Assembly (NCBI RefSeq): GCF_000332195.1
Contig: NZ_KB235922.1
Span: 3,073,322 to 3,137,321 of the forward strand
Reading direction: 5' to 3'
Length of the DNA stretch: 64,000 bases
Source of the DNA: Pleurocapsa sp. PCC 7319
Lineage (GTDB): Bacteria > Cyanobacteriota > Cyanobacteriia > Cyanobacteriales > Xenococcaceae
Position 1 is the first letter of the stretch, and each line of letters starts with the position of its first letter. The translations under genes were made by a program, and so were the position numbers. Below the pieces are notes generated by a model. The model was not told the origin of the DNA. It worked only from the letters and a program-made list of their open reading frames with translations, and made no database searches. Shown piece by piece: positions 11,870-37,544 of this stretch.

Positions 11870-11925
11870 CCTGAAAAAACATCTGAATTTCTCCCCTGTT
11901 ACTTCCTCAAGATGAATCGGATAAT
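11870..11925 (+). promoter_or_regulatory. Tandem CCTGAA promoter module, copy 1
   Basis: Two sites, CCTGAA at 11870 and TCTGAA twelve bases later, run into TTTCTCCCC. Then come a -35-like TGTTAC (11897-11902), a 17-base spacer and GATAAT (11920-11925). The same geometry is present at 31568, 32991 and 37475. It faces the small + strand frame at 11987; the CHAT gene lies behind it on the other strand and could share the site. Confidence 0.5.
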
Positions 11926-11986
11926 ACGAGCAAATGAACTTTAAATATTATTTATCAAAAAGCTTTCAAAAGGGAAGTTAAGGAAA

Positions 11987-12214
11987 ATGAGAATTAGCTG
12001 GACAAGACAAGTAACTAAAACATTATCAACTAAAATATTATTCTGGCTCACATTCCAAATTTTACTCAATTCTGTAGGAATAAATACAGCGGTTTTCAGT
12101 TGGGTCAAGTCTAGTAGCAACATAGTGCAAACCCACGAAGAATATTGTCCCACGAATTCTGAGCAAAGTCAGAAGAACTATCTTCAACAAAAGCTTAATG
12201 AGTTCTTGAACTAA
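11987..12214 (+). CDS. Small putative exported protein, unknown
   Basis: 75 residues with a basic start (MRISWTRQVTK) and a hydrophobic stretch around ILFWLTFQILLNSVGI, compatible with a signal peptide or single membrane anchor, then a polar Gln/Asn-rich tail. AAGGA lies three bases before the ATG (11980-11984), AGGGAAG slightly upstream, and a promoter module ends about 60 bases upstream. No family recognised. An antisense frame of 70 residues overlaps but lacks these signals. Confidence 0.45.
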   Translation: MRISWTRQVTKTLSTKILFWLTFQILLNSVGINTAVFSWVKSSSNIVQTHEEYCPTNSEQSQKNYLQQKLNEFLN

Positions 12215-12451
12215 CGGATTCAATAACTCCGCCCTGCCCTAACGGGACGAGAACGGAGAATGTCAGACCCAGTTGACTTGAAACGTTGAATAGACCCATA
12301 GCCTAACTATCTAACAGACTTCCGAATATCTCCCTAGTTCGGATTATCTCTAAAATTCCTGGGTGGAATTTCATCTCAAAGGTGGACATGGTTAGTTGGG
12401 TGGTCGAAGGGACGTACTAAAAGTACAAACACTTATATAGGATTATCTCTT
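12215..12451 (+). other. Structured non-coding stretch before an iscB-like remnant
   Basis: No protein frame. Several short hairpins are visible, for example GTACTAAAAGTAC near 12411 and ATTCCTGGGTGGAAT near 12355, and the stretch runs directly to the ATG of the 49-codon remnant that begins like an IscB/RRXRR protein. In IscB elements the guide omega-RNA is encoded immediately upstream of the gene, so this could be a relic omega-RNA. The assignment rests on position and hairpins only. Confidence 0.25.
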
Positions 12452-13147: not shown

Positions 13148-13158
13148 CTTGGTCTATC

Positions 13159-13177: not shown

Positions 13178-13234
13178 TTGTATCATCATTTCCCTCCTAT
13201 CTCCTACTTTCTCTGGCGTTGCTCAATAATCGGT

Positions 13235-13457
13235 GATGTTTTATTAAAAAAGGCTTCGCTGCCGTTGGGGACAGAAAACTCCTCAAAACTAGAAATAAAT
13301 TGCCTCCAGCTCGATCGCCTTCGTCGATTCTGATGCCATTATCAATCGGAGTTACAGTAGTATTAGTCGTGCGATCAGGACTGATTTGTGCTTGAACAGG
13401 GGCGATAAACACACTACCCAGAAAAAACCCTAGGAGTATTGAAGAGCAAGGTTTCAT
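13235..13457 (-). pseudogene. tpsA N-terminal fragment
   Basis: Starts with an intact tpsA leader and signal peptide (MKPCSSILLGFFLG, PVQAQISPD) and the TPS domain up to GGNLF. A base is lost in the CATAG that normally encodes the following HSF, shifting the frame. Homology continues to the codons for GSEAFF and stops near 13235, where unrelated sequence carrying the toxin-antitoxin module begins. It is the most distal unit of the minus-strand tpsA array. Confidence 0.85.
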
Positions 13458-13518
13458 TATAGATACTTCTGATGGTCAATTTGGTTTTGATTATACAGAT
13501 TAAATCAGTACTATTGGC
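13458..13518 (-). promoter_or_regulatory. tpsA leader (fragment copy)
   Basis: Same leader as the other tpsA genes, with the minus-strand TATAAT at 13490-13495. It occupies the whole gap between the stop of tpsA copy 2 and the start of the N-terminal fragment. Confidence 0.55.
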
Positions 13519-16500
13519 TCAACGCCGACATATTTTGTCATTTTTAGGTTGTGGGGAAGCACCATTCACATCAGTCTTCTGAGCCACTAACTCCACCTTA
13601 CCGCGATCGTTGATTATCCATCCCTGAGCCTCAATAATCTCTTTTTCTTCCTCTATTTCTCTATCTGCCCCTGCTTCCTTCACTGTCTCGACTTTCTCTG
13701 ATTCTTCCCTAGTCGCAGGTGCTACCAAATCTACGTCACTAATCTCCCCATCCCTGACTTGACTTGGATTTGGCGCTACACCACCTTTTCCTGTGACAAT
13801 AAATTCACTTCCTTTTCCTTGCTGACAGAGATTTTGCGCTACTAATCCCACCACATCGATTAATGACATCGGCAACTCTTCCAATGCTTCGACGGGATTA
13901 ACATCTAGTTGATTAATGGCGATCGTTCCATCTAAGCCAAATTCTGAACTAGCATCTATGTCATTTGTTTCATTAGCAGGTAGCGAACTTCTTTCTTCGA
14001 TTCCAAAAATTGAATTAGTAGAAATATTAATGTTGCCCCCCGTTCCTTGTGCCGCATTAGCAATAATATCATTGTTTTGGTTGGGGAAAGCAACCACAAA
14101 ACCAGCATCAATATCAATATTACCGCCATTAGCACTATTATTAAGAGCTTCTGCTGATATCAAACTGTTATCCAGTAGAACAATATTATCGGCGCGGAGA
14201 TTGATGTTGCCACTATTCTCAGTTTCACCTTGACCTGAGGTACTAGCAGAAACTCGTCCATTAGCCAAAATTAAATTGGTAGTAGAGATGGTAATACCTC
14301 CGGCATCTCCTTCTGCACCTGAAACTACCTGACTAGTAGCACCACTAGAAAAACCTTGTGAACTTTCACCAGTCAAAATAATGTTTCCTGTAGCGGTAAT
14401 ACCTACCGAACCTGCATCCCCTTGACCAAAAGTACTAGCAGAAATTTCTCCCCCATTAGTTAGAGTCAGGTTATTAGTAGAGATGGTGACACCTCCGGCA
14501 TTTCCTTGTGCATTTGAACCAACCAGACTAATAGCACCACTAGGAAAACCACCTAAATCTTCACCATCAATAGTTATATCTTCTGTTGCGGTAAGATCTA
14601 CCGAACCTGCATCCCCTTGACCAAAAGTACTAGCATCAACTCGTCCCCCATTGGTTAGAGTCAGGTTATTAGTAGAGATGGTGACACCTCCGGCATTTCC
14701 TTGTGCATTTGAACCAACCAGACTAATAGCACCACTAGGAAAACCACCTAAATCTTCACCATCAAAAGTAATGTCTCCTGTAGCGGTAATATTGACAGTT
14801 CCGGCATCCCCTCGACCTCCTGTACTAGCATCAACTCGTCCCCCATTGGTCAGAGTCAGATTAGTAGTACTAATGGTCACACCTCCGGCATTTCCTTGTG
14901 CATTTGAACCAACCAGACTAGTAGCACCACTAGGAATACCTTCTGAATCTTCACCATCAAAAGTGATATCTCCTGTGGCAGTAAGATCGACAGTTCCGGC
15001 ATTCCCTTGACCAAAAGTACTAGCAGAGACTTGTCCTCCATTAGTCACAGTCAGGCTAGCAGTATCGATAGTCACCCCTTCTGAATTTCCTTCTGCACCT
15101 GAATTAACCTGACTAAAAGCACCACTACTATCAGAGCCATCTAAAGTTTCACCATCAAAAATTATGTCTTCTGTTGCGGTAAGATCTACCGAACCTGCAT
15201 CCCCTCGACCTCCTGTACTAGCAGAAATCCTTCCCCCATTGGTTAGAGTCAGATTAGTAGTAGAGATAGTCACACCTCCGGCATTTCCTACTGCACCTGA
15301 ATTAACCAGACTAGTAGCACCACTAGGAAAACCACCTAAATCTTCACCATCAATAATTATGTCTCCTGTAGCGGTAATATTGACAGTTCCGGCATCCCCT
15401 CGACCCAAAGTACCAGCATCAACTCGTCCTCCCTTGGTTAGAGTCAGGTTATTAGTAGAGATAGTCACACCTCCTGCATTTCCTTCTGCACCTGGATTAA
15501 CCAGACTAGTAGCACCACTCTGGAAACCTTGTGAATTTTCACCATCAAAAGTTATGTCTCCAGTAGCCGTAATATCGACCGAACCGGCATTTCCTTGTCC
15601 AAAAGTACTAGCATCGACATCCCCTCCTGCCCTCAGAGTCAGATTAGTAGTAGAGATAGTCACACCTCCGGCATTTCCTTCTGTATTTGAACCAACCTGA
15701 CTAAAAGCACCACTACTATCAGAGCCATCTAAAGTTTCACCATCAAAAGTTATGTCTCCAGTAGCGGTAATATCGACCGAACCGGCATTTCCTCGACCTT
15801 CTGTACCAGCATTAACTCTTCCCCCTGCCCTTAGAGTCAGATTATTGGTGGAGATAGTCACCCCCCCTGCATCTCCTTGGGCATCTGAACCAACCAGACT
15901 AAAAGCACCACTAGGAATACCTTCTGAATCTTCACCAGCAAAAATAATGTTTCCTGTGGCAGTAATATCGACAGTTCCGGCATTCCCTTGACCAAAAGTA
16001 CTAGCAGAGACTTGTCCTCCATTAGTCACAGTCAGGCTAGCAGTATCGATAGTCACCCCTTCTGAATTTCCTTCTGCACCTGAATTAACCTGACTAAAAG
16101 CACCACTACTATCAGAGCCATCTAAAGTTTCACCATCAAAAATTATGTCTCCAGTAGCGGTAAGATCAATCGAACCAGCATCCCCTTGACCAAAAGTACT
16201 AGCAGAAATTCCTCCCCCATTAGTTAGAGTCAGATTATTGGTGGAGATAGTCACCCCCCCTGCATTTCCTTCTGCATCTGAAGCAACCTGACTAAAAGCA
16301 CCACTCTGGAAACCTTGTGAATCTTCACCAGCAAAAATAATGTTTCCTGTGGCAGTAATATCGACAGTTCCGGCATTCCCTCGACCTCCTGTACTAGCAA
16401 AAACCCTTCCCCCATTGGTTAGAGTCAGGTTATTAGTCGAGATAGTCACACCTCCTGCATTTCCTTCTGCACCTGGATTAACCTGACTAAAAGCACCACT

Positions 16501-18024
16501 ACTATCAGAGCCATCTAAAGTTTCACCATCAAAAGTAATGTCTCCAGTAGCGGTAAGATCAATCGAACCAGCATCCCCTTGACCAAAAGTACTAGCAGAA
16601 ATTCCTCCCCCATTAGTTAGAGTCAGATTATTGGTGGAGATAGTCACCCCCCCTGCATTTCCTTCTGCATCTGAAGCAACCTGACTAAAAGCACCACTCT
16701 GGAAACCTTGTGAATCTTCACCAGCAAAAATAATGTTTCCTGTGGCAGTAATATCGACAGTTCCGGCATTCCCTCGACCTCCTGTACTAGCAAAAACTCT
16801 TCCCCCATTGGTTAGAGTCAGATTATTAGTCGAGATAGTCACCCCCCCTGCATTTCCTTCTGCATCTGAAGCAACCTGACTAGCAACACCACTAGGATTA
16901 CCATCTAAATCGTCACCATTAAAAGTTACATCTCCAGTAGCGGTAATATCCACCAAACCTCCATCCCCTTGACCAAAAGTACTAGCAGAAACTTGACCCC
17001 CACTCATTGCTTCAATTGAACCAGTATTAATCGCGATCCTGCCTGAATTACCCACTGCACCAGACTCAACTCGATTTGTAATACTACTGTCATTCAGAGT
17101 TATCTTTTCCGCAACATTAATAGTCACATCTCCTGCTTGTGCCTCGGTAGATGTAGATTCAGCTCTAATTCCTGCCCGAATCAAACTCCTACGGAATTCT
17201 CCTGCTGCTACATTTAAGTTACCAGCATTAACGGTAATACTTCCTCCTCCTGTTCCCCTGGCATCTACATCCGCAGCATTGCTCAAATTGACATTTGCTT
17301 TGGTTACTCCATCAGGAAAGCTTAAGCTACCATCTTCATTGATACCTACTGTTCCTGCGACTGATAAACCACCTAATTCTATATTTCCTCCTTTAGCAGT
17401 AACTTGACCTCCCTCAAAATCAATCTGACCGCCAATCAAAGCCAGATTATTTCCTGGGGCAACTTCTAAACCGATAACTTCTTCTGAACTATTTTCGACA
17501 ACTGAACGATTGACTATTTCTCCAGGATTATCTTCTAGACCCAATCCCAGAGGTGCATTGATGGTTAATAAAGGCGGATTCTCGGAATCGGTAGCACTAA
17601 ATTCAATTCCATCAGGAAATAAAATACTACTGGCAGTACTGCCTAAAAAAGAACCACCAATATTTAAAGACGCATTTTCCCCAAAGATAATTCCTGCTGG
17701 GTTAAGCAAAAATAAATTAGCAGTATCATTGGCTCGAATCAAACCATCAATGTTAGATATACTTCCCCCAGTGACGCGAGAAAAGATATTAGCAATATCA
17801 GCGGTGTTATTAAAGAAGGCTTCGCTGCCATTGGGTATGGAAAACTGCTCAAAACTATGAAATAAATTGCCTCCTGCTTGATCGCCATCGTCGATTCTGA
17901 TGCCATTATCAATCGGAGTTACAGTGGTATTGGTCGTGCGATCTGGACTGATTTGAGCTTGAACGGGGGCAATAAACACACTACCCAGAAAAAACCCTAA
18001 GAGTATTGAAGAGCAAGGTTTCAT
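13519..18024 (-). CDS. TpsA-type filamentous haemagglutinin exoprotein, copy 2 (longest)
   Basis: 1501 residues from the ATG at 18024, which matches the start of all the paralogues (MKPCSSILLGFFLG). The frame is open a further 16 codons into the leader, but that is read-through. Signal peptide to PVQA, TPS domain with NPAGIIFG, about 14 beta-helix repeats of 65 residues, then the conserved NLCQQGKGSEF block and the tail KNDKICRR. Compared with the 972-978-residue copies it has gained about eight repeat units, some nearly identical, so it seems to have grown by recent internal duplication. Same strand and spacing as the other array members. Export by the single TpsB is inferred. Confidence 0.9.
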   Translation of the reverse strand: MKPCSSILLGFFLGSVFIAPVQAQISPDRTTNTTVTPIDNGIRIDDGDQAGGNLFHSFEQFSIPNGSEAFFNNTADIANIFSRVTGGSISNIDGLIRANDTANLFLLNPAGIIFGENASLNIGGSFLGSTASSILFPDGIEFSATDSENPPLLTINAPLGLGLEDNPGEIVNRSVVENSSEEVIGLEVAPGNNLALIGGQIDFEGGQVTAKGGNIELGGLSVAGTVGINEDGSLSFPDGVTKANVNLSNAADVDARGTGGGSITVNAGNLNVAAGEFRRSLIRAGIRAESTSTEAQAGDVTINVAEKITLNDSSITNRVESGAVGNSGRIAINTGSIEAMSGGQVSASTFGQGDGGLVDITATGDVTFNGDDLDGNPSGVASQVASDAEGNAGGVTISTNNLTLTNGGRVFASTGGRGNAGTVDITATGNIIFAGEDSQGFQSGAFSQVASDAEGNAGGVTISTNNLTLTNGGGISASTFGQGDAGSIDLTATGDITFDGETLDGSDSSGAFSQVNPGAEGNAGGVTISTNNLTLTNGGRVFASTGGRGNAGTVDITATGNIIFAGEDSQGFQSGAFSQVASDAEGNAGGVTISTNNLTLTNGGGISASTFGQGDAGSIDLTATGDIIFDGETLDGSDSSGAFSQVNSGAEGNSEGVTIDTASLTVTNGGQVSASTFGQGNAGTVDITATGNIIFAGEDSEGIPSGAFSLVGSDAQGDAGGVTISTNNLTLRAGGRVNAGTEGRGNAGSVDITATGDITFDGETLDGSDSSGAFSQVGSNTEGNAGGVTISTTNLTLRAGGDVDASTFGQGNAGSVDITATGDITFDGENSQGFQSGATSLVNPGAEGNAGGVTISTNNLTLTKGGRVDAGTLGRGDAGTVNITATGDIIIDGEDLGGFPSGATSLVNSGAVGNAGGVTISTTNLTLTNGGRISASTGGRGDAGSVDLTATEDIIFDGETLDGSDSSGAFSQVNSGAEGNSEGVTIDTASLTVTNGGQVSASTFGQGNAGTVDLTATGDITFDGEDSEGIPSGATSLVGSNAQGNAGGVTISTTNLTLTNGGRVDASTGGRGDAGTVNITATGDITFDGEDLGGFPSGAISLVGSNAQGNAGGVTISTNNLTLTNGGRVDASTFGQGDAGSVDLTATEDITIDGEDLGGFPSGAISLVGSNAQGNAGGVTISTNNLTLTNGGEISASTFGQGDAGSVGITATGNIILTGESSQGFSSGATSQVVSGAEGDAGGITISTTNLILANGRVSASTSGQGETENSGNINLRADNIVLLDNSLISAEALNNSANGGNIDIDAGFVVAFPNQNNDIIANAAQGTGGNINISTNSIFGIEERSSLPANETNDIDASSEFGLDGTIAINQLDVNPVEALEELPMSLIDVVGLVAQNLCQQGKGSEFIVTGKGGVAPNPSQVRDGEISDVDLVAPATREESEKVETVKEAGADREIEEEKEIIEAQGWIINDRGKVELVAQKTDVNGASPQPKNDKICRR
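14470..16990. repeat. 195-198-bp tandem coding repeats of tpsA copy 2
   Basis: Units recur at 195-bp spacing (for example the segment at 14476 recurs at 14671), each encoding a 65-residue beta-helix turn set. A two-unit block of 393 bp is duplicated almost perfectly: the sequence at 16158 recurs at 16551. Similar repeats are present in every tpsA copy and are a substrate for recombination between and within genes. Confidence 0.9.
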
Positions 18025-18078
18025 TTTAAAGATACTTCTGATGGTCAATTTGGTTTTGATTATACAGCTCAAATCAGT
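18025..18078 (-). promoter_or_regulatory. tpsA copy 2 leader
   Basis: Conserved leader with the minus-strand TATAAT at 18059-18064, 35 bases before the ATG. Ends where the next upstream tpsA 3' fragment begins. Confidence 0.55.
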
Positions 18079-18362
18079 ATTGTTGACTCAACTGCGACAC
18101 ATTCTGTCATTTTTAGGTTGTGGGGAAGCACTATTCATACTAAATCCGTTTCGTATAGGTCACTTAAAAAATTGAGTAATAAGTAACGAGTAACGAGTAA
18201 CGAGTATTGGTGATTCTGATTTCAGAGTAAGACTTTTATGAAGAAATTAAACACTACCTTTGTTAATCGGATTTAGTATCACATCAGTCTTCTGAGCCAC
18301 CAACTCTACCTTACCGCGATCGTTGATTATCCATCCCTGAGCCTCAATAATTTTTTTCTCTG
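18079..18362 (-). pseudogene. tpsA C-terminal fragment interrupted by a MITE
   Basis: The last codons of a tpsA gene: on the minus strand IIEAQGWIINDRGKVELVAQ, then, beyond a 141-bp insertion, ASPQPKNDR and a stop. Homology to the other copies ends near 18362. With the orphan tpsA leader at 21232-21289 on the same strand it brackets the 18363-21231 gene block, as if that block replaced the body of a former tpsA copy. Confidence 0.85.
18138..18278. mobile_element. 141-bp MITE with 11-bp perfect inverted ends and TCA target duplication
   Basis: Begins TACTAAATCCG (18138-18148) and ends CGGATTTAGTA (18268-18278), perfect inverted repeats. It is flanked by TCA at 18135-18137 and 18279-18281. Intact tpsA copies have a single TCA at this point (ATTCACATCAG), which shows the precise insertion and the 3-bp duplication. 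Inside is a short tandem run of GAGTAAC-like heptamers (about 18183-18206). No transposase is encoded; the parent transposon is not in the window. Confidence 0.85.
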
Positions 18363-18472
18363 ACACCGGGACCCCAATCAACAAAAAAACTGGGTGACAT
18401 TAAGGAAGCTTGTAGTTACTTGATTAAAGACCGAGTGGAATACTTTAGTCTTAAGAAGATCTACCTAATGAA

Positions 18473-18535
18473 TCAGCGAAAGTTAGAGAGTGCCTATTTC
18501 TTTCGTTGATGACCAATTCGAGACTTTTTTCAGAT
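18473..18535 (+). promoter_or_regulatory. Hairpin plus CAGATG leader element, copy 2
   Basis: TCAGCGAAAG (18473-18482) and CTTTCGTTGA (18500-18509) pair over ten positions with one G-U wobble around a 17-nt loop, followed by ATTCGAGACTTTTTTCAGAT. Same arrangement as at 8899 and 57430. Ends about 80 bases before the PAP/fibrillin start. A G-U in place of A-U keeps the pairing, which favours an RNA or at least a selected palindrome. Confidence 0.6.
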
Positions 18536-18614
18536 GTTTGCTTATCTGAGAATTTATAAGATTGGAGTAATCGAGCATTGATAGATATTTTCAAATAAGC
18601 TCAACATAATAACT

Positions 18615-19385
18615 ATGAATACAGACAGCATAGATGCTCAAAGGGAAAAAGCAAAAGCAGATCTGAAAACAGCCTTAGCCACTCATAATGGTGATACAAA
18701 AGAGATCGCGGTAGCAGAAGCGATCGCTCTGTTATCTTCTCTTAATCCCACACCAAACCCAGCCCAGAATCAAACCTTGTTAGAAGGTAATTGGATACTG
18801 ATTAGTGCGCCCAATTTTCCTGGCAAACTATCAGATGAAGCCAACAGATATGTCTATACTTTGGGCAGATTAGCATTTAATAAGTTTGAACCTGCTAATC
18901 TTCGAGTTGCCATAGAGCGAGTTTCCCAACCAATCTTTTTTAAAGAACAAGAAAATGATTATAGCTACGATATCGTAGTGGAGTTCAAAATTATCGACGA
19001 AAATTTTCCCGAACTTCAAGGAGTAGTTAAAAATCTGGCAGTTTGCTCTCCTGTCGAAGACGATACATTGCAAGTAATGTTTACTGGCGGAGAATTAATC
19101 CCTGCCGTTGATAGCGATCGAGAACAGATTAAACAATGGTTGGAGATATTTGGTAGTAGTCAAACAAAGTCCCAGATTTCCTTATTAGAGCGTCTGACAT
19201 TTTGGTTGGTGCAGAAAATGTTCAGTATGAGTCAAGTATCTGCGATCGATCCAACAACAGGAAAACAATCCTTTGCGATCGATAAATCACCCAAAGGCAA
19301 ATTGAAATTACTTTATCTAGATGAAGAGTTGCGAATTACCCAGGGAAATCGAAAGTCAGTCTTAGTGTGTCAACGAGAAGTTTGA
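18615..19385 (+). CDS. PAP/fibrillin-family lipid-associated protein
   Basis: 256 residues, no signal peptide. The N-terminal helical part (AKADLKTALATHNGDTKEI) and LLEGNWILISAPNFPG match the start of the PAP/fibrillin (plastid lipid-associated) domain, a lipocalin-like family that in plants and cyanobacteria associates with thylakoid membranes or plastoglobule-like lipids. The C-terminus (LDEELRITQGNRKSVLVC) fits the family ending, RITRGNRGSLFV-like. It follows hairpin element copy 2 and is read in the same direction as the two genes behind it. It sits in a block flanked by tpsA fragments, hence a relocated segment. No clear Shine-Dalgarno. Confidence 0.8.
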   Translation: MNTDSIDAQREKAKADLKTALATHNGDTKEIAVAEAIALLSSLNPTPNPAQNQTLLEGNWILISAPNFPGKLSDEANRYVYTLGRLAFNKFEPANLRVAIERVSQPIFFKEQENDYSYDIVVEFKIIDENFPELQGVVKNLAVCSPVEDDTLQVMFTGGELIPAVDSDREQIKQWLEIFGSSQTKSQISLLERLTFWLVQKMFSMSQVSAIDPTTGKQSFAIDKSPKGKLKLLYLDEELRITQGNRKSVLVCQREV

Positions 19386-19676
19386 TTTCTTCAATAGCTG
19401 TTAGCTGTTAGCAATTAGCTTAAGTTAACTGTTGACATTGTCATTTGTATTCAGTGGGAGATTGTGACCCGCCACTGAATGATATGCCGCCAAACTTCGT
19501 TTTGGCGGTGGTCGTAGACCCATAGTTGTTAGCTACAAGACATTTAATCTTCTCACTTTAGAGCTAAAGGCTAAAGGCTAATAGCTAATAGCTTTAAAGA
19601 TAAGAACAGACTTTCAGAAAACAAGAAATACTTTCATCAGAAAACCTTAACTTAAATCGAATTGGAGGGCAATTTT

Positions 19677-20069
19677 ATGTTGACGGACGACCAAAGGGTT
19701 CTTAACCAACTCGCCTTTGCTAGGAGAAAACTTTTTGCTCCAGATATTCCTCTCTGCCTAAAAGCAATCTCCTATGTGCGAATCTGCTGTTCGGCGATGA
19801 AAAAGCTTGACTACTTCCCCTCAAATGATCGAGGGAGCAATGACCATAAGACACCTTATCTAAGTTTGTTGAAATCACTTTCTCAAAGGGATTCACAGTG
19901 GTGGAACAAATGCCAAGTTACTAATGAAGGAAGACTAAGGTCTGACGATCCCATTATCGATCAACTATTACAACCTTTAAATCACTTCATTGATTGCCAA
20001 ATGTTTAATACACTATCTGAAAATAGACCCGTAGATGAGCAATTTAAAGAACTCTCAAACCTACCTTAA
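19677..20069 (+). CDS. Conserved-looking protein of unknown function
   Basis: 130 residues from the ATG at 19677, preferred over an upstream TTG because GGAGG ends eight bases before it. Composition is ordinary and soluble, with several Cys (PLCLKAISYVRICCSAMKK) and no membrane segment. No family recognised. Its end overlaps the FAD-monooxygenase start by 35 bases, so the two are probably translationally coupled. The 19386-19676 gap before it contains only short GTTAGCT-like heptamer repeats and a hairpin CCGCCAAAC with GTTTTGGCGG. Confidence 0.6.
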   Translation: MLTDDQRVLNQLAFARRKLFAPDIPLCLKAISYVRICCSAMKKLDYFPSNDRGSNDHKTPYLSLLKSLSQRDSQWWNKCQVTNEGRLRSDDPIIDQLLQPLNHFIDCQMFNTLSENRPVDEQFKELSNLP

Positions 20070-21231: not shown

Positions 21232-21289
21232 AGATACTTCTGATGGTAAATTTGGTTTAGATTATACAGCTCAAATCAGCACTGTTAGC
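21232..21289 (-). promoter_or_regulatory. Orphan tpsA leader at the end of the FAD gene
   Basis: Minus-strand tpsA leader (TATAAT at 21261-21266) whose start codon is gone: the expected CAT is replaced by the last codons of the FAD gene. It is identical to the leader at 24212-24269 together with the adjoining 3' end of the next tpsA, so the copy is recent. Confidence 0.75.
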
Positions 21290-24208: not shown

Positions 24209-24269
24209 TATAGATACTTCTGATGGTAAATTTGGTTTAGATTATACAGCTCAAATCAGCACTGTTAGC
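24209..24269 (-). promoter_or_regulatory. tpsA copy 3 leader
   Basis: Conserved leader with minus-strand TATAAT at 24241-24246, filling the gap to the stop codon of copy 4. Confidence 0.55.
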
Positions 24270-27756: not shown

Positions 27757-27817
27757 TATAGATACTTCTGATGGTCAATTTGGTTTTGATTATACAGATT
27801 AAATCAGTACTATTGGC
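27757..27817 (-). promoter_or_regulatory. tpsA copy 4 leader
   Basis: Conserved leader with minus-strand TATAAT at 27789-27794, between copy 5 and copy 4. Confidence 0.55.
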
Positions 27818-30754
27818 TCAACGCCGACATATTTTGTCATTTTTAGGTTGTGGGGAAGCACCATTCACATCAGTCTTCTGAGCCACTAACTCTACCTTAC
27901 CGCGATCGTTGATTATCCATCCCTGAGCCTCAACAATTTCTTTCTCTTCCTCTATTTCTTTATCTGCCCCTGTTCCCTTCACTGTCTCGACTTTTTCTGA
28001 TTCTTCCCCAGTTGCAGGTGCTACCAAATCTACGTCACTAATCTCCCCCTCCCTGACTTGACTTGGATTTGGCGCTACACCACCTTTACCTGTGACAATA
28101 AATTCACTTCCTTTTCCTTGCTGACAGAGATTTTGCGCTACTAATCCCACTACATCGATCAGAGACATGGGTAACTCTTCCAATGCCTCGACGGGATTAA
28201 CATCTAGTTGATTAATGGCGATCGTTCCATCTAAGCCAAATTCTGAACTAGCATCTATGTCATTTGTTTCATTAGCAGGTAGCGAACTTCTTTCTTCGAT
28301 TCCAAAAATTGAATTAGTAGAAATATTAATGTTGCCCCCCGTTCCTTGTGCCGCATTAGCAATAATATCGTTGTTTTGGTTGGGGAAAGCAACCACAAAA
28401 CCAGCATCAATATCAATATTACCGCCATTAGCACTATTATTAAGAGCTTCTGCTGATATCAAACTGTTATCCAGTAGAAAAATATTATCGGCGCGGAGAT
28501 TGATGTTGCCACTATTCTCAGTTTCACCTTGACCTGAGGTACTAGCAACAACTCGTCCCCCATTGGTAAGAGTCAAATTGGTAGCAGAGATGGTAATACC
28601 TCCAGCATCTCCTTCTGCATCTGAATCAACCATACTAGTAGCACCACTAGGAAAACCTTGTGAAGTTTCACCATCAATAGTAATGTCTCCGGTAGCAGTA
28701 AGTTCAATAGTTCCGGCATTCCCTTGACCAAAAGTACTAACATCAACTCTTCCCCCCTTGGTTAGAGTCAGATTATTAGTGGAGATAGTCACTCCCCCTG
28801 CATCTCCTTCTGCACCTGGATTAACCGCACTAGAAGCACCACTAGGAAAACCTTCTGACTCTTCACCATCAATAGTTATATCTCCTGTGGCAGTAAGCTC
28901 AACAGTTCCGGCATTCCCTTGACCAAAAGTAGTAGCATCAACTCTTCCCCCCTTGGTTAGAGTCAGATTATTAGTGGAGATAGTCACTCCCCCTGCATCT
29001 CCTTCTGCACCTGGATTAACCGCACTAGAAACACTACTAGGAAAAACTTGTGAAGTTTCACCATCAATAGTTATATCTCCTGTGGCAGTAAGCTCAACAG
29101 TTCCGGCATTCCCTCGACCAAAAGTAGTAGCATCAACTCTTCCCCCATTAGTTAGAGTCAGATTATTAGTGGAGATAGTCACTCCCCCTGCATCTCCTTC
29201 TGCACCTGGATTAACCGCACTAGAAACACCACTAGGAAAACCTTCTGACTCTTCACCATCAATAGTTATATCTCCTGTGGCAGTAAGCTCAACAGTTCCG
29301 GCATTCCCTTGACCAAAAGTAGTAGCATCAACTTGTCCTCCATTGGTTAGAATCAGATTATTAGTGGAGATAGTCACTCCCCCCGCATCTCCTTCTGCAC
29401 CTGGAGCAACCTGACTAGAAACAACACTAGGAAAACCTTGTGAAGTTTCACCATCAATAGTAATGTCTCCGGTAGCAGTAAGCTCGACAGTTCCGGCATT
29501 CCCTCGACCAAAAGTACTAACAACAACTCTTGCCCCCTTGGTTAGAGTCAGATTATTAGTGGAGATAGTCACTCCCCCTGCATCTCCTTCTGCACCTGGA
29601 TTAACCGCACTAGAAACACCACTAGGAAAACCTTCTGACTCTTCACCATCAATAGTTATATCTCCTGTGGCAGTAAGCTCAACAGTTCCGGCATTCCCTT
29701 GACCTCCTGTACTAGCATCAATATCTCCCCCATTGATTGCTTCAATTGAACCAGTATTAATCACGATTCTGCCTGAATTACCCACTCCACCAGACTCAAC
29801 TCGATTAGTAATACGACTATCATTCAGAGTGATCTTTTCAGCCACATCGATAGTCACATTTCCTGCTTGTGCCTCGGCAGATGTCGATTCAGGTCTAATT
29901 CCTGCTCGAATAAAACTTTTACGGAATTCTCCTGCTGCTAAATTTAAGTTACCAGCGTTAACGGTAATATTTCCTCCACCTGCTCCCCTGGCATCTACAT
30001 CCGCACCATTGCTCAAATTGATATCTGCTTGGGTTACTCCTTCAGGAAAACTAAAGCTACCATCAGAATTAATACCTACTGTTCCTGCGACTGATAAACC
30101 ACCTAATTCTATGTTTCCCCCCATAGCAGTAACTTGACCTCCCTCAAAATCAATCTGACCGCCAATCAAAGCCAGATCATTTCCTGGGGCAACTTCTAAA
30201 CCGACAACTTCTTCTGCGCTATTTTCGACAACTGAACGATTGACTATTTGCCGAGGATTATCTTCTAAACCTAATCCTAGAGGCGCATTAATGGTTAATA
30301 AAGGCGGATTCTCGGAATCGGTAGCACTAAATTCAATCCCATCAGAAAACAAAATACTACTGACAGTACTGCCTAAAAAAGAACCACCAATATTTAAAGA
30401 CGCATTTTTCCCAAAGATAATTCCTGCTGGGTTAATCAAAAATAAATTAGCAGTATCATTGGCTCGAATCAAACCATCAATGTTAGAGATACTTCCCCCG
30501 GTGACACGAGAAAAGATATTAACTATGTCGTTGGCATTATTAAAAAAGGCTTCGCTGCCATTGGGTACGGAAAACTGCTCAAAACTATGAAATAAATTGC
30601 CTCCAGCCTGATCGCCATCGTCGATTCTGATCCCATTATCTATTGGAGTTACAGTGGTATTGGTCGTGCGATCTGGACTGATTTGTGCTTGAACGGGGGC
30701 GATAAACACACTACCCAGAAAAAACCCTAAGAGTATTGAAGAGCAAGGTTTCAT
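27818..30754 (-). CDS. TpsA-type filamentous haemagglutinin exoprotein, copy 5
   Basis: 978 residues, first gene of the minus-strand array. Signal peptide to PVQA, TPS domain with NPAGIIFG, six or seven repeats with a distinctive GTVELTATGDITIDGE variant in place of GSVDITATGD, and the shared C-terminal block. The uniform VELTATGD variant through this copy suggests its repeats were homogenised within the gene, unlike copies 2 and 3. It is preceded by transposase debris instead of another tpsA. Confidence 0.9.
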   Translation of the reverse strand: MKPCSSILLGFFLGSVFIAPVQAQISPDRTTNTTVTPIDNGIRIDDGDQAGGNLFHSFEQFSVPNGSEAFFNNANDIVNIFSRVTGGSISNIDGLIRANDTANLFLINPAGIIFGKNASLNIGGSFLGSTVSSILFSDGIEFSATDSENPPLLTINAPLGLGLEDNPRQIVNRSVVENSAEEVVGLEVAPGNDLALIGGQIDFEGGQVTAMGGNIELGGLSVAGTVGINSDGSFSFPEGVTQADINLSNGADVDARGAGGGNITVNAGNLNLAAGEFRKSFIRAGIRPESTSAEAQAGNVTIDVAEKITLNDSRITNRVESGGVGNSGRIVINTGSIEAINGGDIDASTGGQGNAGTVELTATGDITIDGEESEGFPSGVSSAVNPGAEGDAGGVTISTNNLTLTKGARVVVSTFGRGNAGTVELTATGDITIDGETSQGFPSVVSSQVAPGAEGDAGGVTISTNNLILTNGGQVDATTFGQGNAGTVELTATGDITIDGEESEGFPSGVSSAVNPGAEGDAGGVTISTNNLTLTNGGRVDATTFGRGNAGTVELTATGDITIDGETSQVFPSSVSSAVNPGAEGDAGGVTISTNNLTLTKGGRVDATTFGQGNAGTVELTATGDITIDGEESEGFPSGASSAVNPGAEGDAGGVTISTNNLTLTKGGRVDVSTFGQGNAGTIELTATGDITIDGETSQGFPSGATSMVDSDAEGDAGGITISATNLTLTNGGRVVASTSGQGETENSGNINLRADNIFLLDNSLISAEALNNSANGGNIDIDAGFVVAFPNQNNDIIANAAQGTGGNINISTNSIFGIEERSSLPANETNDIDASSEFGLDGTIAINQLDVNPVEALEELPMSLIDVVGLVAQNLCQQGKGSEFIVTGKGGVAPNPSQVREGEISDVDLVAPATGEESEKVETVKGTGADKEIEEEKEIVEAQGWIINDRGKVELVAQKTDVNGASPQPKNDKICRR

Positions 30755-31567: not shown

Positions 31568-31623
31568 CCTGAACAAACACCTGAATTTTTCCTCTTGTAC
31601 GGACTAAAAGCCTGAAGCATAAT
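31568..31623 (+). promoter_or_regulatory. Tandem CCTGAA promoter module, copy 2 (histidine kinase)
   Basis: CCTGAA at 31568 and 31580, twelve bases apart, then TTTTTCCTC, TTGTAC (31595-31600), a 17-base spacer and CATAAT (31618-31623). About 47 bases before the kinase start at 31670. This is the best -35/-10 pair of the four modules, with the tandem sites just upstream of -35, where an activator would bind. Confidence 0.55.
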
Positions 31624-31669: not shown

Positions 31670-32938
31670 ATGCTAAAAACTCAACTTACTCCTCCACTAT
31701 CTTTTCCCACAGATACTCAACAAAGCAATAATACCCAACACCATTTCTCTAATCATAATTTAGCGCTCTCTGTGGCGCAGTTAACTAATCAAGTACGAGC
31801 TGAACGTCAGATGCGACAAAAATTGGCTCATGCTCACGAACAGTTACAGCAATATTCTCAGAAGATTGAAGAACTGGCCACGATACAAGAACGTAATCGT
31901 ATTGCTCGGGAACTCCATGACTCTTTGGGTCACGCTCTCACTAGTTTAAACATTCAGATGCAAACTGCCCTCAAACTCTGGGACAAAGAACCCGAACAAG
32001 CTCACTCTTTTCTAGCGCAAGCTCAACAGTTAGGAAAGACAGCCATAAAAGAAGTGCGTCAATCCATTAGCAGCCTTAGAGAAGATGCTCAAGATGAAAA
32101 ACCTCTAGCAGCCAAAATTGACGTTTTAGTAGATGATTGTCGCAGAGGAACTGGTCTAGACATTGATACCAACATTAGTTGCTGTGGTTCAGTTCCCTCT
32201 CCAGTAGCCCAAAATGTTTATCGGATTGTCCAAGAAGCTTTGACCAACATTTTTAAATATGCACAAGCCACAAAAGTACAAATTAACCTTAAAAGTACCC
32301 CAGAAGGAATTTATTTGACTGTAGAAGATAACGGTAAAGGTTTTGATTTAAACCAAAAGCGTTCTGGGTTTGGACTTCAAGGAATGCAAGAGAGGGTAGC
32401 TAGTGTTAACGGTCATCTTCAGCTCAAGACTTCACCAGGAAACGGCTGTCGAATAGAAGTCGAAATCTCTTGCATCAAAGCAAGCCCCCAGACAAAGCAA
32501 GAGGAGGAATTTTCAGAAAGACATAATAATGATCGTGTTCTTTCTATGAACCCAGAAAGACAAGAAGAAAAAGCAGCAACTTTAGAGACAGAAAATCAAG
32601 CACTGCTAGAGAGAAGTTGGAGGCTAGATGGTCAGACAAGTTCTCAGCCATCATCATCTGATGAATTGAAAAAGACAAGAAAGAACAGAATGAAGATTTG
32701 GCTTCCAGAAGTAAAACTGCAAACAGGTGGGCAAGAAAGTCTTTCTGGTAAAAGGTGGGAACAAGTCTCAAAACCAGACTTGAGAGTGAACTATTCAACA
32801 CCAAATATTGGTTCAGGAGAAGGATTTGAGATAAAGAAAGAGAAAGTAATATCGGTATCGAGGCGAAAAGCCTTGGAGATTCCAGAACCACGAATGTCTG
32901 TCTGGGAGAATCAAGGAAAAGTGCAACAATTTGCCTAA
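31670..32938 (+). CDS. NarL-type (HisKA_3) sensor histidine kinase, cytoplasmic
   Basis: 422 residues without membrane segments. A coiled-coil lead (QVRAERQMRQKLAHAHEQLQ, about 35-75) precedes the HisKA_3 dimer domain with the phospho-acceptor His83 in ARELHDSLGH, and a HATPase domain with N box EALTNIFKYAQAT (about 189-201), DNGKGF (220-225) and GFGLQGM (233-239). Residues 271-422 form a charged low-complexity tail of unknown role. The sensor input usual for the family is absent, so input may come from a partner. No response regulator is in the window. It is driven by promoter module 2, which it may itself help control, as an inference. Confidence 0.88.
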   Translation: MLKTQLTPPLSFPTDTQQSNNTQHHFSNHNLALSVAQLTNQVRAERQMRQKLAHAHEQLQQYSQKIEELATIQERNRIARELHDSLGHALTSLNIQMQTALKLWDKEPEQAHSFLAQAQQLGKTAIKEVRQSISSLREDAQDEKPLAAKIDVLVDDCRRGTGLDIDTNISCCGSVPSPVAQNVYRIVQEALTNIFKYAQATKVQINLKSTPEGIYLTVEDNGKGFDLNQKRSGFGLQGMQERVASVNGHLQLKTSPGNGCRIEVEISCIKASPQTKQEEEFSERHNNDRVLSMNPERQEEKAATLETENQALLERSWRLDGQTSSQPSSSDELKKTRKNRMKIWLPEVKLQTGGQESLSGKRWEQVSKPDLRVNYSTPNIGSGEGFEIKKEKVISVSRRKALEIPEPRMSVWENQGKVQQFA

Positions 32939-32990: not shown

Positions 32991-33045
32991 CCTGAAAAAT
33001 ACCTGAATTTTTCCTCTTTTAATATTTCTCTATTGGATGCACAAT
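32991..33045 (+). promoter_or_regulatory. Tandem CCTGAA promoter module, copy 3
   Basis: CCTGAA at 32991 and 33002, eleven bases apart, then TTTTTCCTC, TTTTAA (33017-33022), 17 bases and CACAAT (33040-33045), the weakest -10 of the set. It precedes the frameshifted small membrane frame at 33187 and the DUF928 gene. The rest of 32939-33186 shows nothing else. Confidence 0.45.
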
Positions 33046-33186
33046 TATAAAAAATAAACTTCAATTAAATTAAAAATTATGATAAAACATAATATCTAAA
33101 TTTCCCCTCGGAACTTAAATTTATCAAATCTTATTAACTAATCTGCATCTCCGAAACTATATTTCTCATTTACCCAGAATGTTTCG

Positions 33187-33418
33187 ATGTATCAGCAGAC
33201 AAAACCAAAAAGATTCATAGTCAATCTTCTTAAAAAAAATTATTTTTGCTTGGTTATTTATAGCTACATTGGTGATACTGAGTGTTTTTCAATTTTCAAG
33301 TTCTTTAGAAGTTACTCTAGCTAATCTAAAATTCGCCAAGTATAGAAAATTATCTATTCCCACAGATACGAAGAAAAATATTGACAAAGATTATAAGCAA
33401 AAAAATGAAGCTCTTTAA
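33187..33418 (+). pseudogene. Small single-membrane-segment protein, frameshifted in an A-run
   Basis: An ATG at 33187 opens MYQQTKPKRFIVNLLKK. In another frame, after an eight-A run at about 33232-33239, the sequence IIFAWLFIATLVILSVF is a clear membrane segment, followed by VTLANLKFAKYRKLSIP and a stop at 33416-33418 inside the start of DUF928. One base gained or lost in the A-run would join them into a 76-77-residue protein with a 14-base overlap to DUF928. Could be a decayed gene, a sequencing error or A-run slippage. Confidence 0.4.
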
Positions 33419-34223
33419 AAAAAATATGTCTTTAAAAAAATCAAACAATAATTTAGGCTCGATCGCTTTTGTAAGTTTATTAAGCTTTTCATTAACATTA
33501 GTAGCGATCTCGAAATGTCTCGCAGAAGGCGAGATAGAAAATATCAATGCTCCGATCTTATTTCAACCTCCATCTGGAGAAGAACGCCCAGAAAAGACCG
33601 ATGCAGCGGCTTCACGTCAAGATGCAAGATGTTCTGAAGATCGTTTAGTATCTCAACAACAAAAGTCCGAACGCGATCGCCTTCAACTAACTCCTATTGT
33701 ACCCGATCGCTTTGGGTTAACAGTAGCCGAACGTCCTACTTTTTGGGTTTATTTACCCAAAACTTCAGCAAAAAAGGCAATTTTGAGTATTAAAGAAAAA
33801 GGTGCTAACCCTCATTGGCAACAGTCGATTAGTTTGACAGGAAAAACTGGGATTTTGGGGATTAGATTATTAGATGATGCTCCTGCTTTAGAAATTGGCA
33901 AACAGTATCAATGGGCGGTAGTGTTAGTTTGCGGTAACAGAGCTAATCCTAATGATCCATTTGTTACTGCTGGGATTAAGCGTGTTGCTGAGGAATCTCC
34001 AGTGACTGATTCTTCATTATCGGCAAACAGTATGCTAGAAAAGGCGAACATATATGCAAAAAAGGGAATTTGGTATGATTCGCTAGATATGTTGATATCC
34101 GAAAAAAAATCGTCTTTAAGTAATTGGAACAATCTTTGGACTCAATATCTAAAATCTGCTGGTTTAGGTAAAATTGCTAATCAACCAATTTTAGGCAGGA
34201 TTCAGGGATCGTCTTTACCTTGA
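33405..34223 (+). CDS. DUF928 family exported protein
   Basis: 272 residues from the ATG at 33405; an in-frame ATG-like start at 33381 adds eight residues but lies further into the upstream frame. The N-terminus is basic then hydrophobic (LGSIAFVSLLSFSLTLVAI), a signal peptide ending near KCLAEG. The body matches the cyanobacterial DUF928 pattern: NPTFW-like ERPTFWVYLPKTSAKKAILS, a central HWQQSISLTGKTGILGIRL and QYQWAVVLVC. Function unknown. DUF928 genes often lie beside CHAT and CHASE2 genes, as here. A truncated paralogue is at 58289. Confidence 0.82.
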   Translation: MKLFKKNMSLKKSNNNLGSIAFVSLLSFSLTLVAISKCLAEGEIENINAPILFQPPSGEERPEKTDAAASRQDARCSEDRLVSQQQKSERDRLQLTPIVPDRFGLTVAERPTFWVYLPKTSAKKAILSIKEKGANPHWQQSISLTGKTGILGIRLLDDAPALEIGKQYQWAVVLVCGNRANPNDPFVTAGIKRVAEESPVTDSSLSANSMLEKANIYAKKGIWYDSLDMLISEKKSSLSNWNNLWTQYLKSAGLGKIANQPILGRIQGSSLP

Positions 34224-34671: not shown

Positions 34672-37398
34672 TTAAACCCCTTTATTAAATGGTAATTGTT
34701 TTATCTCTTGTTCTATTAGGTCTGAATTGTCTTTATTTTCTGATTGCTTGAGATGTTCTAGAGCAATTCTACTGACAATAGGTCGCTCACGATGTTCTGC
34801 TAACAGAAATGCTAAGGTAAGTTGAAACTTTTGGCGATCGCGTTGTTGATTTCTCAGTGTGATCGCCATAATTACTGTCATAATTAGTGTCAGTATTGAA
34901 GGCACTAGAGGAAGCCACCAGCCTGATAGAAATGCTAGATAACAAGTAATAATCAATATGATGGTGGTTAAGCAAACATAACCAGAAATTGCGAGCGTCG
35001 ATTGCCAACGCCAAAAAATAATAACCCCAATGATTCCCCACAAGAGAATCCAGAGAGATTCTGAGAGTTTGTTATGGGTGCGAAGTAATGGGCGCTTACC
35101 GAGCGCAGCATCAATTATTTGACTGGCGACATTAGCATGAATAAAAACCCCAGGCATTTTCTCTGGAGAACGAAACCAACCTTGATTATTACTATAGGGT
35201 GTATCAAAGACATCTTTGATACTTTCAGCAGTAGTACCAATAAAAATTAAGCGATTTTGAAGGTCTTGGGGAGCTATTTTGCCGTTTAGCACTTCTGTTA
35301 AAGAATACTGTTTAAAATTAGCTTGTGTTCCCCAAAAATTGAGTAATATTTGAGTTCCCCCATTATCTGTACGCACATATCCTCCATCATTACTCTCAAA
35401 TCGTTTAAAGATAGCTTTTCCTAAACCATAGCGAATAGGATCTTCGTCTATAGGGTCTGGATGGATGTCTCGCTCTCCTAAATAATGTAGGGCTAATTGA
35501 GCACCCAAACTTAAACGCACCTTGTCATTATCGGTTCCCAAAGATAATAACGCCCGGCGTACTCTACCATCACCATCTGTAATTTGATCGGCAAAGCCAA
35601 CTTGTTCTTGCTTAAAATCTTTGGGGGGAGAAATACCAGGATCTCCGATTACTTTTTCGACGGCAAACAGATTGGGAGTAGAGTTAAAGATTTGGAGTAA
35701 TTCTCGATTTCCTGAATCATCGCAATTGGATAAATCTGGAACTGGTATATCGCGATAGACATCTAAGGCGATCGCACTTGGTTGATGCGCTTTTAAATTT
35801 TTAATGGCTTTTGCAAAGACACTGTCGGGAATGGGCCATTGATTAATATCTGCAATATCTTGATCATCAATCGTAACTACTGCGATTTGAGGTTCCTGGT
35901 GATCTGTAAGTCGCCAACCAAAAAAGAGATCGAGTGCATTCCATTCCCAAGTTTGTAAAATTCCCGTAGAACGTAATAGTAAGATCAATGCTGTTACTCC
36001 CGAAGCAATTAATGCTAGCCAGGAAATGTCTAAGCGTTGTTGATATACTCTATGTCGCGCTTTTTTTCTCGCTCTTGCTAATAATTTACTAGCTGCTTTT
36101 ACTGCTGTTAAAGTATCTTCTGTCTTCTGTTTGGCTAAGTTTTGACTAGCAACCAAAAACTGATAGTCTATATCGCCAAGACTTTTACCCAACGACCAAG
36201 ATAAAGCATCTTGCAAATCTTTCCCTTTGAGTAAATAAGTTGGATCGCAATTATTGCTGGTCATCCAATTCGCGATCTCTTTGCTGTAGGGACGTAGTTG
36301 TGCTAATTGATTGTCAACCCAAGCTAAATTAAATACTTTGGTATAAATCGGATTATTAGCTTCCAAGTTCCCATGTCTTTCGACAACTAAACCCGATAAA
36401 CGTAGTTCTATCTGCTCGGGGTTATTATTAACCCGAATTTTTCCCTGTTGTAATACCTCTCGATATAGACCTAGTAAACGAATAGTTGCTGATGAATTTC
36501 GATAGCATAGGCGATCGCGTATGGTACGAAGATGTTCTGGTTCATCTTGGGTATCCCAATCAGTAACAATATATTTATCAACGATATTAGCTACGATGTT
36601 GTTTTCTTCACTATTCCCTTTTTCTACAACTAATTGGCATAATTTTTGAGTTAAAAAAGGTTGTCCTCCTGTCCAATACAAAATATCTGCTAATATTTGT
36701 TCAGGATAAGTAACCTTATTCATTAACCCCGATGTCAAAGGTAAAGCTTCTTCTAATTTAAAACCTTGTAAGATTATTGCTTTACCAATATCAAATGGAG
36801 ATTGAGTTTTATCGCTAATTAAATCTCTAGGTGCTGCTACTCCTAAAAGAGTAAAAGTAAGACGATGATAATGTGGATTAACTTGACGCTTTTGATAGCA
36901 GCTATGCATTAAAGCGAAAAAATCATCTAGAGAAAATTTTTGGCTAAGAACTCGGTCTATTTCATCAATAAAAATAACAATTTTTTCTGTAATTTCTACT
37001 AATAAAACTTCCTCAATAAATAAACTTAATCTCTGTAAAGGACTGAATAAATCTCTTTTTTCTCGCCACCATTTACGCCAATTAAACTTCAGTTGAGAAC
37101 CACTAACTAGCGAACGGACAATTCCTGCGTACCACTTTTCCGGAGTCAAATCTTGGGTTCCCATACCCGTCAAGTCAATAAAAATACAAACAGTCTTTTC
37201 TGCTTGTAATTTCTCCATTGCTCGCACACGCAAACTAGATTTTCCCATTTGTCGTGAGTTTAAAACATAGCAAAATTCTCCTTGTCTTAAAGCTCGATCT
37301 AATTCTTGGTCGGCTTTTCGTTCTATGTAGCTGGGAGATTTACTAGCTAAACTTCCTCCAATTTGATAAGAGAATATAGTTTTATGCTCCTTCATCAA
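34672..37398 (-). CDS. AAA-like ATPase fused to CHASE2 sensor with C-terminal membrane helices
   Basis: 908 residues. Residues 1-370 are an AAA-like (AAA_35) domain with Walker A SRQMGKSSL (about 48-56) and Walker B-like VIFIDEID. A linker leads to a membrane helix at about 454-474 (WLALIASGVTALILLL), then an extracytoplasmic CHASE2 domain (EPQIAVVTIDDQDI to VFIHANVASQII), then three helices (about 770-850) and a short cytoplasmic end. CHASE2 usually senses an unknown extracellular signal; here the output is the N-terminal ATPase in place of a kinase or cyclase. Upstream is promoter module 4. A 20-bp palindrome (AAAGGGGTTTAAACCCC) overlaps the stop codon and may help termination. Confidence 0.88.
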   Translation of the reverse strand: MMKEHKTIFSYQIGGSLASKSPSYIERKADQELDRALRQGEFCYVLNSRQMGKSSLRVRAMEKLQAEKTVCIFIDLTGMGTQDLTPEKWYAGIVRSLVSGSQLKFNWRKWWREKRDLFSPLQRLSLFIEEVLLVEITEKIVIFIDEIDRVLSQKFSLDDFFALMHSCYQKRQVNPHYHRLTFTLLGVAAPRDLISDKTQSPFDIGKAIILQGFKLEEALPLTSGLMNKVTYPEQILADILYWTGGQPFLTQKLCQLVVEKGNSEENNIVANIVDKYIVTDWDTQDEPEHLRTIRDRLCYRNSSATIRLLGLYREVLQQGKIRVNNNPEQIELRLSGLVVERHGNLEANNPIYTKVFNLAWVDNQLAQLRPYSKEIANWMTSNNCDPTYLLKGKDLQDALSWSLGKSLGDIDYQFLVASQNLAKQKTEDTLTAVKAASKLLARARKKARHRVYQQRLDISWLALIASGVTALILLLRSTGILQTWEWNALDLFFGWRLTDHQEPQIAVVTIDDQDIADINQWPIPDSVFAKAIKNLKAHQPSAIALDVYRDIPVPDLSNCDDSGNRELLQIFNSTPNLFAVEKVIGDPGISPPKDFKQEQVGFADQITDGDGRVRRALLSLGTDNDKVRLSLGAQLALHYLGERDIHPDPIDEDPIRYGLGKAIFKRFESNDGGYVRTDNGGTQILLNFWGTQANFKQYSLTEVLNGKIAPQDLQNRLIFIGTTAESIKDVFDTPYSNNQGWFRSPEKMPGVFIHANVASQIIDAALGKRPLLRTHNKLSESLWILLWGIIGVIIFWRWQSTLAISGYVCLTTIILIITCYLAFLSGWWLPLVPSILTLIMTVIMAITLRNQQRDRQKFQLTLAFLLAEHRERPIVSRIALEHLKQSENKDNSDLIEQEIKQLPFNKGV

Positions 37399-37474
37399 AA
37401 TATTTAGTAATGGGTTAAATTATTGCTGTTCACTGTAATTTGGCTTCAGTCTATCGTTTGGCTTCAGTCTATTA

Positions 37475-37544
37475 ATTATACAGTTACTCTTTAGTCAATA
37501 CTAGGGGAAAAATTCAGGTGTTTTTTCAGGTGTTTTTTCAGGTG
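37475..37544 (-). promoter_or_regulatory. Tandem CCTGAA promoter module, copy 4 (three sites)
   Basis: On the minus strand three CACCTG sites at exact 12-base steps (37539-37544, 37527-37532, 37515-37520) run into AATTTTTCCCC, then TAGTAT (37498-37503), a 17-base spacer and a perfect TATAAT (37475-37480). About 77 bases before the CHASE2 start. The + strand also has CATAAT at about 37561-37566, within a TTGAAGCATAATA string shared with module 2. Confidence 0.6.

Follow-up and report, generated by a model that had tools for sequence, protein, structure and literature searches.

The best-studied activators built on a STAND ATPase are AfsR from Streptomyces and MalT from E. coli; MalT and the LAL activators bind several direct repeats. 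The AfsR-type large SARPs of Streptomyces (SARP-NOD-TPR) use direct repeats that are spaced by 11 or 22 bp and keep a constant distance to the -10 element, with a poor -35 element, and for AfsR itself, a NOD-containing activator on 11-bp direct repeats, ATP relieves inhibition (available part of PMC10936776). Here, a 64,000-nucleotide stretch of Pleurocapsa sp. PCC 7319 (the window) was analysed, in which four promoter modules share tandem CCTGAA-type repeats ahead of a -10 hexamer (the CCTGAA box). We consider it likely that these modules belong to one regulon as promoters that depend on an activator. That activator is most probably the 450-aa protein encoded at 4677-6029 (-), which combines a predicted N-terminal helix-turn-helix (HTH) with an AAA_35 ATPase domain (HTH-AAA_35).

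This candidate resembles MalT and the LAL proteins as a STAND ATPase associated with several direct repeats, but its predicted HTH is N-terminal instead of C-terminal, its ATPase is of the AAA_35 type, and it has a CHASE2 protein as neighbour. In the 450-aa protein, AAA domains are all that Pfam detects; a SARP domain and a TPR sensor were not found, and the protein therefore falls outside the SARP and MalT families. Its predicted HTH resembles the DNA-binding domain of NarL/LuxR-type regulators, but no receiver domain was found by Pfam and the output domain is N-terminal. AfsR is the closest studied parallel. In AfsR a nucleotide-binding ATPase is fused to an N-terminal DNA-binding domain, to which the predicted HTH would correspond here, and in both cases direct repeats accompany a poor -35 element; the present system differs in its missing SARP and TPR domains, its 12-bp period and its cyanobacterial host. 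Furthermore, the 3′ repeat of SARP sites lies 8 bp from the -10 element, as far as the available description goes, whereas here the nearest repeat starts 38 bp before the hexamer. Given this different DNA-binding domain and geometry, the protein is not a SARP.

Two other systems show partial likeness. The vWA-MoxR/STAND/EAD conflict systems of multicellular bacteria (described in PMC8195603, available in part) also involve CHAT, caspase and AAA_35 domains, which occur here among neighbours and targets; unlike in those systems, no vWA or MoxR domain was found in the proteins scanned, and many targets are exported or surface-related. The SigJ J-Box of Nostoc punctiforme, GGG plus aAtacT with a weak AT-rich -35, is likewise a conserved promoter sequence common to many genes, but the available part of PMC6495340 describes no tandem CCTGA repeats for it. 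Identity with the J-Box was rejected, because the GGG extended -10 with aAtacT is absent and the consensus of alignment A2, GCATAATACTAAC, differs in the -10.

Architecture of the CCTGAA-box promoters

A sequence-only reading had proposed four modules with fixed internal spacing, and all four sit where it placed them:

11870-11925 (+), CCTGAA-box promoter, repeats at 11870 and 11882, -10 GATAAT at 11920-11925
31568-31623 (+), CCTGAA-box promoter, repeats at 31568 and 31580, -10 CATAAT at 31618-31623
32991-33045 (+), CCTGAA-box promoter, repeats at 32991 and 33002, -10 CACAAT at 33040-33045
37475-37544 (-), CCTGAA-box promoter, three repeats, -10 TATAAT at 37480-37475

The CCTGAA-type repeats, in two, two, two and three copies, follow one another with a period of 11-12 bp, and in all four modules AATTTTTCCYC, 6 bases and a further 17 bases bring the hexamer start to 38 bases past that of the proximal repeat; the module with its proximal repeat at 11882 was placed in this register by alignment, and the other three were measured separately. 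The -35 positions carry the poor variants TAGTAC, TTGTAC or TTTTAC. With up to three mismatches, the two-repeat core matched three times in the window against 0.01 expected from shuffles. A single repeat with TTTTTCC alone was not significant in the window (six matches against 3.29 expected; 9 of 100 shuffles reach six).

In the whole 7.39-Mb genome (G000), CTGAATTTYTCC gave 14 matches and its reversed control none, with full modules at only 7 of the 14. ACCTGAATTTTTCCYCTWGTAC at up to three mismatches gave nine matches (control 0), all of which are modules, one with an insertion. A 50-site model detected 11 boxes at E ≤ 1e-4, and at 10 of these 11 distinct sites the -10 hexamer lies exactly 38 bases after the proximal repeat start. 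CCTGAA boxes are genuine promoter elements, far beyond chance. At the exception, L015 (G000:C7:3302694), the distance is 75 owing to a 37-bp insertion with a 10-bp direct repeat. This insertion (within L015:9695-9775) also contains an internal inverted repeat and represents a natural spacing variant.

Genes downstream of the box

In the window, a box precedes each of the four genes that the sequence-only reading had assigned to the modules, encoding a small exported protein, a kinase, a DUF928 protein and a CHASE2 protein. A weight-matrix scan of the window found no box pointing into the CHAT gene or the TPS genes.

9108-11882 (-), TPR-CHAT protein, back to back with the first box, which does not point into the gene; its true start probably lies inside this longest open reading frame (ORF)
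11987-12214 (+), 75-aa ORF downstream of the first box, probably exported (by eye), without Pfam match
31670-32938 (+), NarL-family histidine kinase (HisKA_3 and HATPase_c), regulon member downstream of the box at 31568
33381-34223 (+), DUF928 protein downstream of the third box
34672-37398 (-), AAA_35-CHASE2 protein, presumably in the membrane, downstream of the fourth box (site 37518 on the minus strand)

The supposed confinement of the boxes to the TPS-CHAT-CHASE2 neighbourhood did not hold, as 7 of the 11 sites in G000 lie elsewhere:

L015:9695, next sense gene encodes a 660-aa protein with RTX repeats
L016:9066 (-), next sense gene encodes a 232-aa protein with RTX repeats
L017:9196 (-), C39-peptidase ABC exporter, then HlyD and a NarL-type response regulator on the same strand
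L028:1069, 2148 and 3429 (-), each before a 126-aa GG-leader peptide
L028:4585 (-), before a 102-aa ORF

Most targets in G000 are proteins that are exported or related to the surface, the exporter for them, and signalling proteins. The one scanned of the three 126-aa GG-leader peptides (L017:17452-17832) shows I36 and beta/gamma-crystallin similarity. Eight GG-leader peptide ORFs lie at L017:9389-17832 and L028:373-3113, beside the C39-peptidase exporter; two of those scanned resemble beta/gamma-crystallin and I36, and a further one has no match in Pfam. Some of them stand under two different boxes.

Distribution in related genomes

Of 40 genomes scanned with a nine-site model, 10 had strong copies at E below 1e-6 (G000, G004, G005, G010, G012, G015, G017, G019, G021 and G022). 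Weak matches of this model are uninformative, since at E ≤ 1 all 40 genomes give something. In 15 of 388 genomes of the order, the 50-site model gave a match at E ≤ 1e-4; of these genomes, 12 are from the own family (Xenococcaceae) and three from family f8, one of which (G244) is doubtful as the match covers 26 bases and the weight matrix finds no site there. In another family, a sister form, ACCTGA(T/C)TTTTTCC(C/T)ATTGTA, stands at the orthologous TPS-CHAT-DUF928-CHASE2 island (L136), so that the proposed link between box and island recurs in a second family. The f8 genome G268 has four variant boxes in the orthologous island, together with TPS, M23 peptidase, CHAT, DUF928 and AAA_35-CHASE2. 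A pattern covering both box forms without requiring a -10 matched 104 times in 36 of the 388 genomes, against 3 matches for the reversed pattern; among the 13 single matches in genomes without an activator match (see below), some are due to chance, and two lie inside ORFs (G386, G308). Scanned with the strict weight matrix, the DUF928 islands at 80 named loci showed a box in four (L156, L157, L159 and, weakly, Nostoc L166; control 0). The looser core added variants in L162, L163 and L164, with 18 matches, 2 of them inside ORFs, against 2 in the control.

Neighbouring repeats of the sister form lie, for example, 22, 33, 42 or 54 bp apart, and upstream CTGA repeats peak at 12, 23 and 53-54 bp over 112 proximal sites, whose loci were partly picked by models that include the -10. 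In loci picked by the core alone (L266-L285), an offset of 38 was still the commonest, with 12 of 30 hexamer calls over 28 cores. Repeat number and spacing vary in helical steps and the distance to the -10 is fixed; helically phased direct repeats at a fixed -10 distance are a property of the box. Of 119 distinct cores, 92 lie in sense within 450 bp of a gene, compared with 41% of random intergenic points, and only 8 fall inside ORFs, compared with 73% of random points. The earlier claim of one regulon with a fixed promoter architecture is supported, as is the position of the sites ahead of a downstream gene.

By Pfam, genes following the box in relatives encode AAA_35-CHASE2, a Ser/Thr kinase with a periplasmic-binding domain, YcaO and a caspase-domain protein; RTX and DUF928 proteins were assigned by similarity, and further genes look metabolic by eye. 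In G017 (L068:12742-15039), the box precedes a YcaO cyclodehydratase gene, which links the regulon to the biosynthesis of ribosomally synthesized and post-translationally modified peptides in that genome.

An HTH-AAA_35 protein as candidate activator

The candidate was drawn from genes that lie beside boxes in unrelated families. In the window, it is encoded next to a transporter gene:

4677-6029 (-), HTH-AAA_35 protein (STAND-like), 450 aa, proposed activator on the basis of Pfam AAA_35, the predicted HTH, co-occurrence and closeness to the box
6155-8446 (-), ShlB/TpsB-type outer-membrane transporter (Pfam), its gene lying immediately upstream of that for the activator, in the same orientation

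Pfam places AAA_35 at residues 117-447 (E 3e-140) and gives no match for the N-terminus, where the predicted HTH resembles the DNA-binding domain of NarL/LuxR-type response regulators. The best Foldseek matches were 2qen (E 7e-10) and 2fna (E 2e-8), followed by ORC/Cdc6, NLRs and Avs3/4, and the GK of the P-loop is invariant in an 18-row alignment. The protein thus has the features of a STAND-clade P-loop ATPase, and we read AAA_35 as a STAND family from these Pfam, Foldseek and P-loop matches. In alignment A4, Walker B reads DN in all six Xenococcaceae rows and DE in 8 of the 12 other rows; because of this DN, the Xenococcaceae group may bind ATP without hydrolysing it. A domain similar to the activator N-terminus (34% identity) is also fused to a receiver at L015:14416-15216 (-), 4.7 kb from a box.

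Matches at E ≤ 1e-130 define an activator set of 48 of the 388 genomes. Activator genes are present in 22 of the 36 box genomes against 4.5 expected (P 9e-14) and, outside the own family, in 15 of 25 (P 5e-10), where the P values for co-occurrence treat genomes as independent although they are related. Among genomes with at least two boxes, 12 of 13 have the activator. Eight of the 48 genomes matched at only 47-49% identity; without them, the overlap is 20 of 36 box genomes against 40 activator genomes (P 3e-13) and, outside the family, 13/25 against 32/361 (P 4e-9). The co-occurrence spans eight family labels. An ortholog of at least 72% identity was found in seven genomes (including G000, and split over two contigs in G019), all of which carry strong boxes. 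Moreover, 18 box matches at up to three mismatches were found in 13 of the 23 loci (L318-L340, about 3-4 kb each) that had been fetched by the protein alone, with none inside an ORF longer than 120 aa and none in the reversed control. In 10 of the 11 f2 loci among them, box and activator gene are divergent, with 79-357 bp between the box and the gene's start.

Several observations weigh against this assignment. Seen from the box side, 3 of 20 longer loci hold a full-length activator gene and 2 a partial copy or weaker relative, which slightly lowers our confidence in the assignment. Fourteen of the 36 box genomes have no activator match, 13 of these with a single box match, and several activator paralogs exist per genome. 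In addition, G012, G021 and G022 have boxes without an ortholog of at least 72% identity. G022 carries six strong boxes with neither a close activator nor a close DUF928 protein, which may reflect recent loss or an assembly gap.

The kinase/response-regulator pair and a second box

According to the sequence-only reading, the activator was possibly the partner of the window kinase, to be sought near other boxes. Such a response regulator was indeed found (L017:4147-4788), but it co-occurs with a different box. Its kinase partner is a membrane-type kinase (L028:5064-6311), a paralog of the window kinase that is 65% identical to it in a match limited to the kinase core. Regulator and membrane-type kinase co-occur in G000, G002, G004, G005, G006, G010, G012, G019, G025 and G026.

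A second tandem box, AGACGTTTTTCAGATGTTT (the AGACG box), was found in the intergenic regions of the pair's kinase genes. It has 29 copies in G000 and none in the control, which gave 2 matches over 40 genomes. Seven of the eight genomes with at least two copies contain the kinase/regulator pair (P about 5e-5), and a coordinate comparison places the box beside the kinase gene in seven genomes. Therefore, the pair most probably owns the AGACG box, and the window kinase is probably a target of the CCTGAA regulon and not its sensor. Genes downstream of the AGACG box encode exported peptides, GG-leader peptides and the C39 exporter. Several genes have both boxes in tandem, namely those for GG-leader peptides and for the C39 exporter, and so does the region beside the kinase. 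Its sites in the window are 8896-8914 (-), 18521 (+) and 57478-57507 (+); by eye, a -10-like hexamer follows at a distance of about 37 bases. The idea of a feed-forward loop, with the AGACG box driving TpsB and the activator, was dropped, since the box at 8896-8914 first precedes a small exported ORF.

Alternative explanations

If the kinase's response regulator bound the CCTGAA box, box and pair should be found together, and some observations do point this way: the regulator gene follows the exporter gene that has a CCTGAA box in front of it, a box lies in the same intergenic region as the membrane-type kinase gene in G000, G004, G005 and G010, and a further box stands before the window kinase. 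The overlap of six genomes (P about 0.007) is weaker than that between the box and the HTH-AAA_35 protein (P 6e-6), and the CCTGAA box does not track the pair. The two sets differ in eight genomes, or seven if the single weak box of G006, which has the pair, is counted: G015, G017, G021 and G022 carry the box but no close copy of the pair at comparable identity, and G002, G025 and G026 carry the pair but no strong box. As the pair follows the AGACG box instead, this regulator was rejected on co-occurrence and is an improbable activator. A second NarL-type regulator group (43-51% identity) was also rejected. In its 13 carrier loci and G015 C211, the loose CCTGA pattern gave 3 matches (L290, L296, L299), each with 2 mismatches and by eye none a module; 2 matches in L301 (G002) were likewise unconvincing.

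The paralogs, the boxes of G022 and the 14 box genomes without a match would also fit a paralog or another island-linked factor binding the box, with the 4677-6029 protein as a passenger. We regard this as unlikely, as the co-occurrence is with the 4677-6029 group across the eight family labels and the box lies divergently close to the gene in nearly all f2 loci. That an alternative sigma factor recognises the element in the manner of the J-Box is very improbable: conservation does run through the spacer to the -10, but the -10 CATAAT looks like a sigma70 element, without the GGG extended -10 that the available part of PMC6495340 gives for the J-Box, and conserved upstream tandem repeats are activator-like. 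Dispersal as a mobile element, without any regulon, has the slimmest chance of all. Some copies before different genes and in different genomes do share spacer sequence (L074, L080, L082, L083, L085), but the strong sense orientation, the avoidance of coding sequence and the helical variation of the repeats at a fixed -10 distance argue against mere copying.

Proposed mechanism and the AAA_35-CHASE2 neighbour

Returning to the HTH-AAA_35 protein as activator, the box, its fixed spacing, orientation and spread and its association with the activator gene were computed, and DNA binding, activation, ATP switching and receptor coupling are our inferences. The N-terminal HTH would bind the tandem CCTGA-type repeats on one face of the DNA. 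Should the hexamer be the -10 element, the nearest repeat would lie at about -50 to -45 and end beside the -35 region, and TTTTTCCCC would then fall against that region. The bound oligomer could hold RNA polymerase with the housekeeping sigma factor at a promoter with a poor -35, and the AAA_35 (STAND) domain may toggle the protein between inactive and oligomeric states. The AAA_35-CHASE2 protein is a candidate membrane receptor for the signal.

AAA_35-CHASE2 is the gene most often found directly beside the activator gene, being the next same-strand gene within 510 bp in 13 of 35 distinct activator loci (29 loci, 25 of them distinct, were scanned for AAA_35-CHASE2 and the other ten were judged in a separate analysis, several loci ending too soon to tell). 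Together with the shared ATPase type, this gene order makes a membrane STAND receptor paired with a STAND activator plausible. In G004, G005, G010 and G015, a box between the two genes reads into AAA_35-CHASE2, with an additional ORF between them in G015. A distance of 29 kb separates the two genes in the window. More speculatively, the two proteins might form a transmembrane pair that signals by STAND-STAND co-oligomerisation instead of phosphotransfer, uses phased CCTGA boxes to turn on a surface and secretion regulon across cyanobacteria and feeds a two-component system with its own AGACG-box regulon; this wider picture we hold only tentatively.

The five box sequences do not occur in the literature searched, and for CCTGAA in cyanobacterial promoters no relevant-looking title was among the matches listed. 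Among the matches listed for CHASE2/DUF928, cyanobacterial AAA_35, vWA-MoxR/CHAT and STAND/CHASE2, the pair is undescribed in the titles and opening parts of abstracts and in the available parts of PMC11119718 and PMC8195603, and no description of a shared role for the TPS, CHAT, DUF928 and CHASE2 island proteins was found. If the proposal is true, these proteins gain a testable common regulator and signal path, and the STAND-ATPase activators a cyanobacterial kind whose DNA box is defined.

The TPS genes of the window are arranged in tandem at 13197-30754, with a truncated copy at 13197-13457. One TPS gene is apparently divided between the overlapping ORFs 24270-26339 and 26308-27756.

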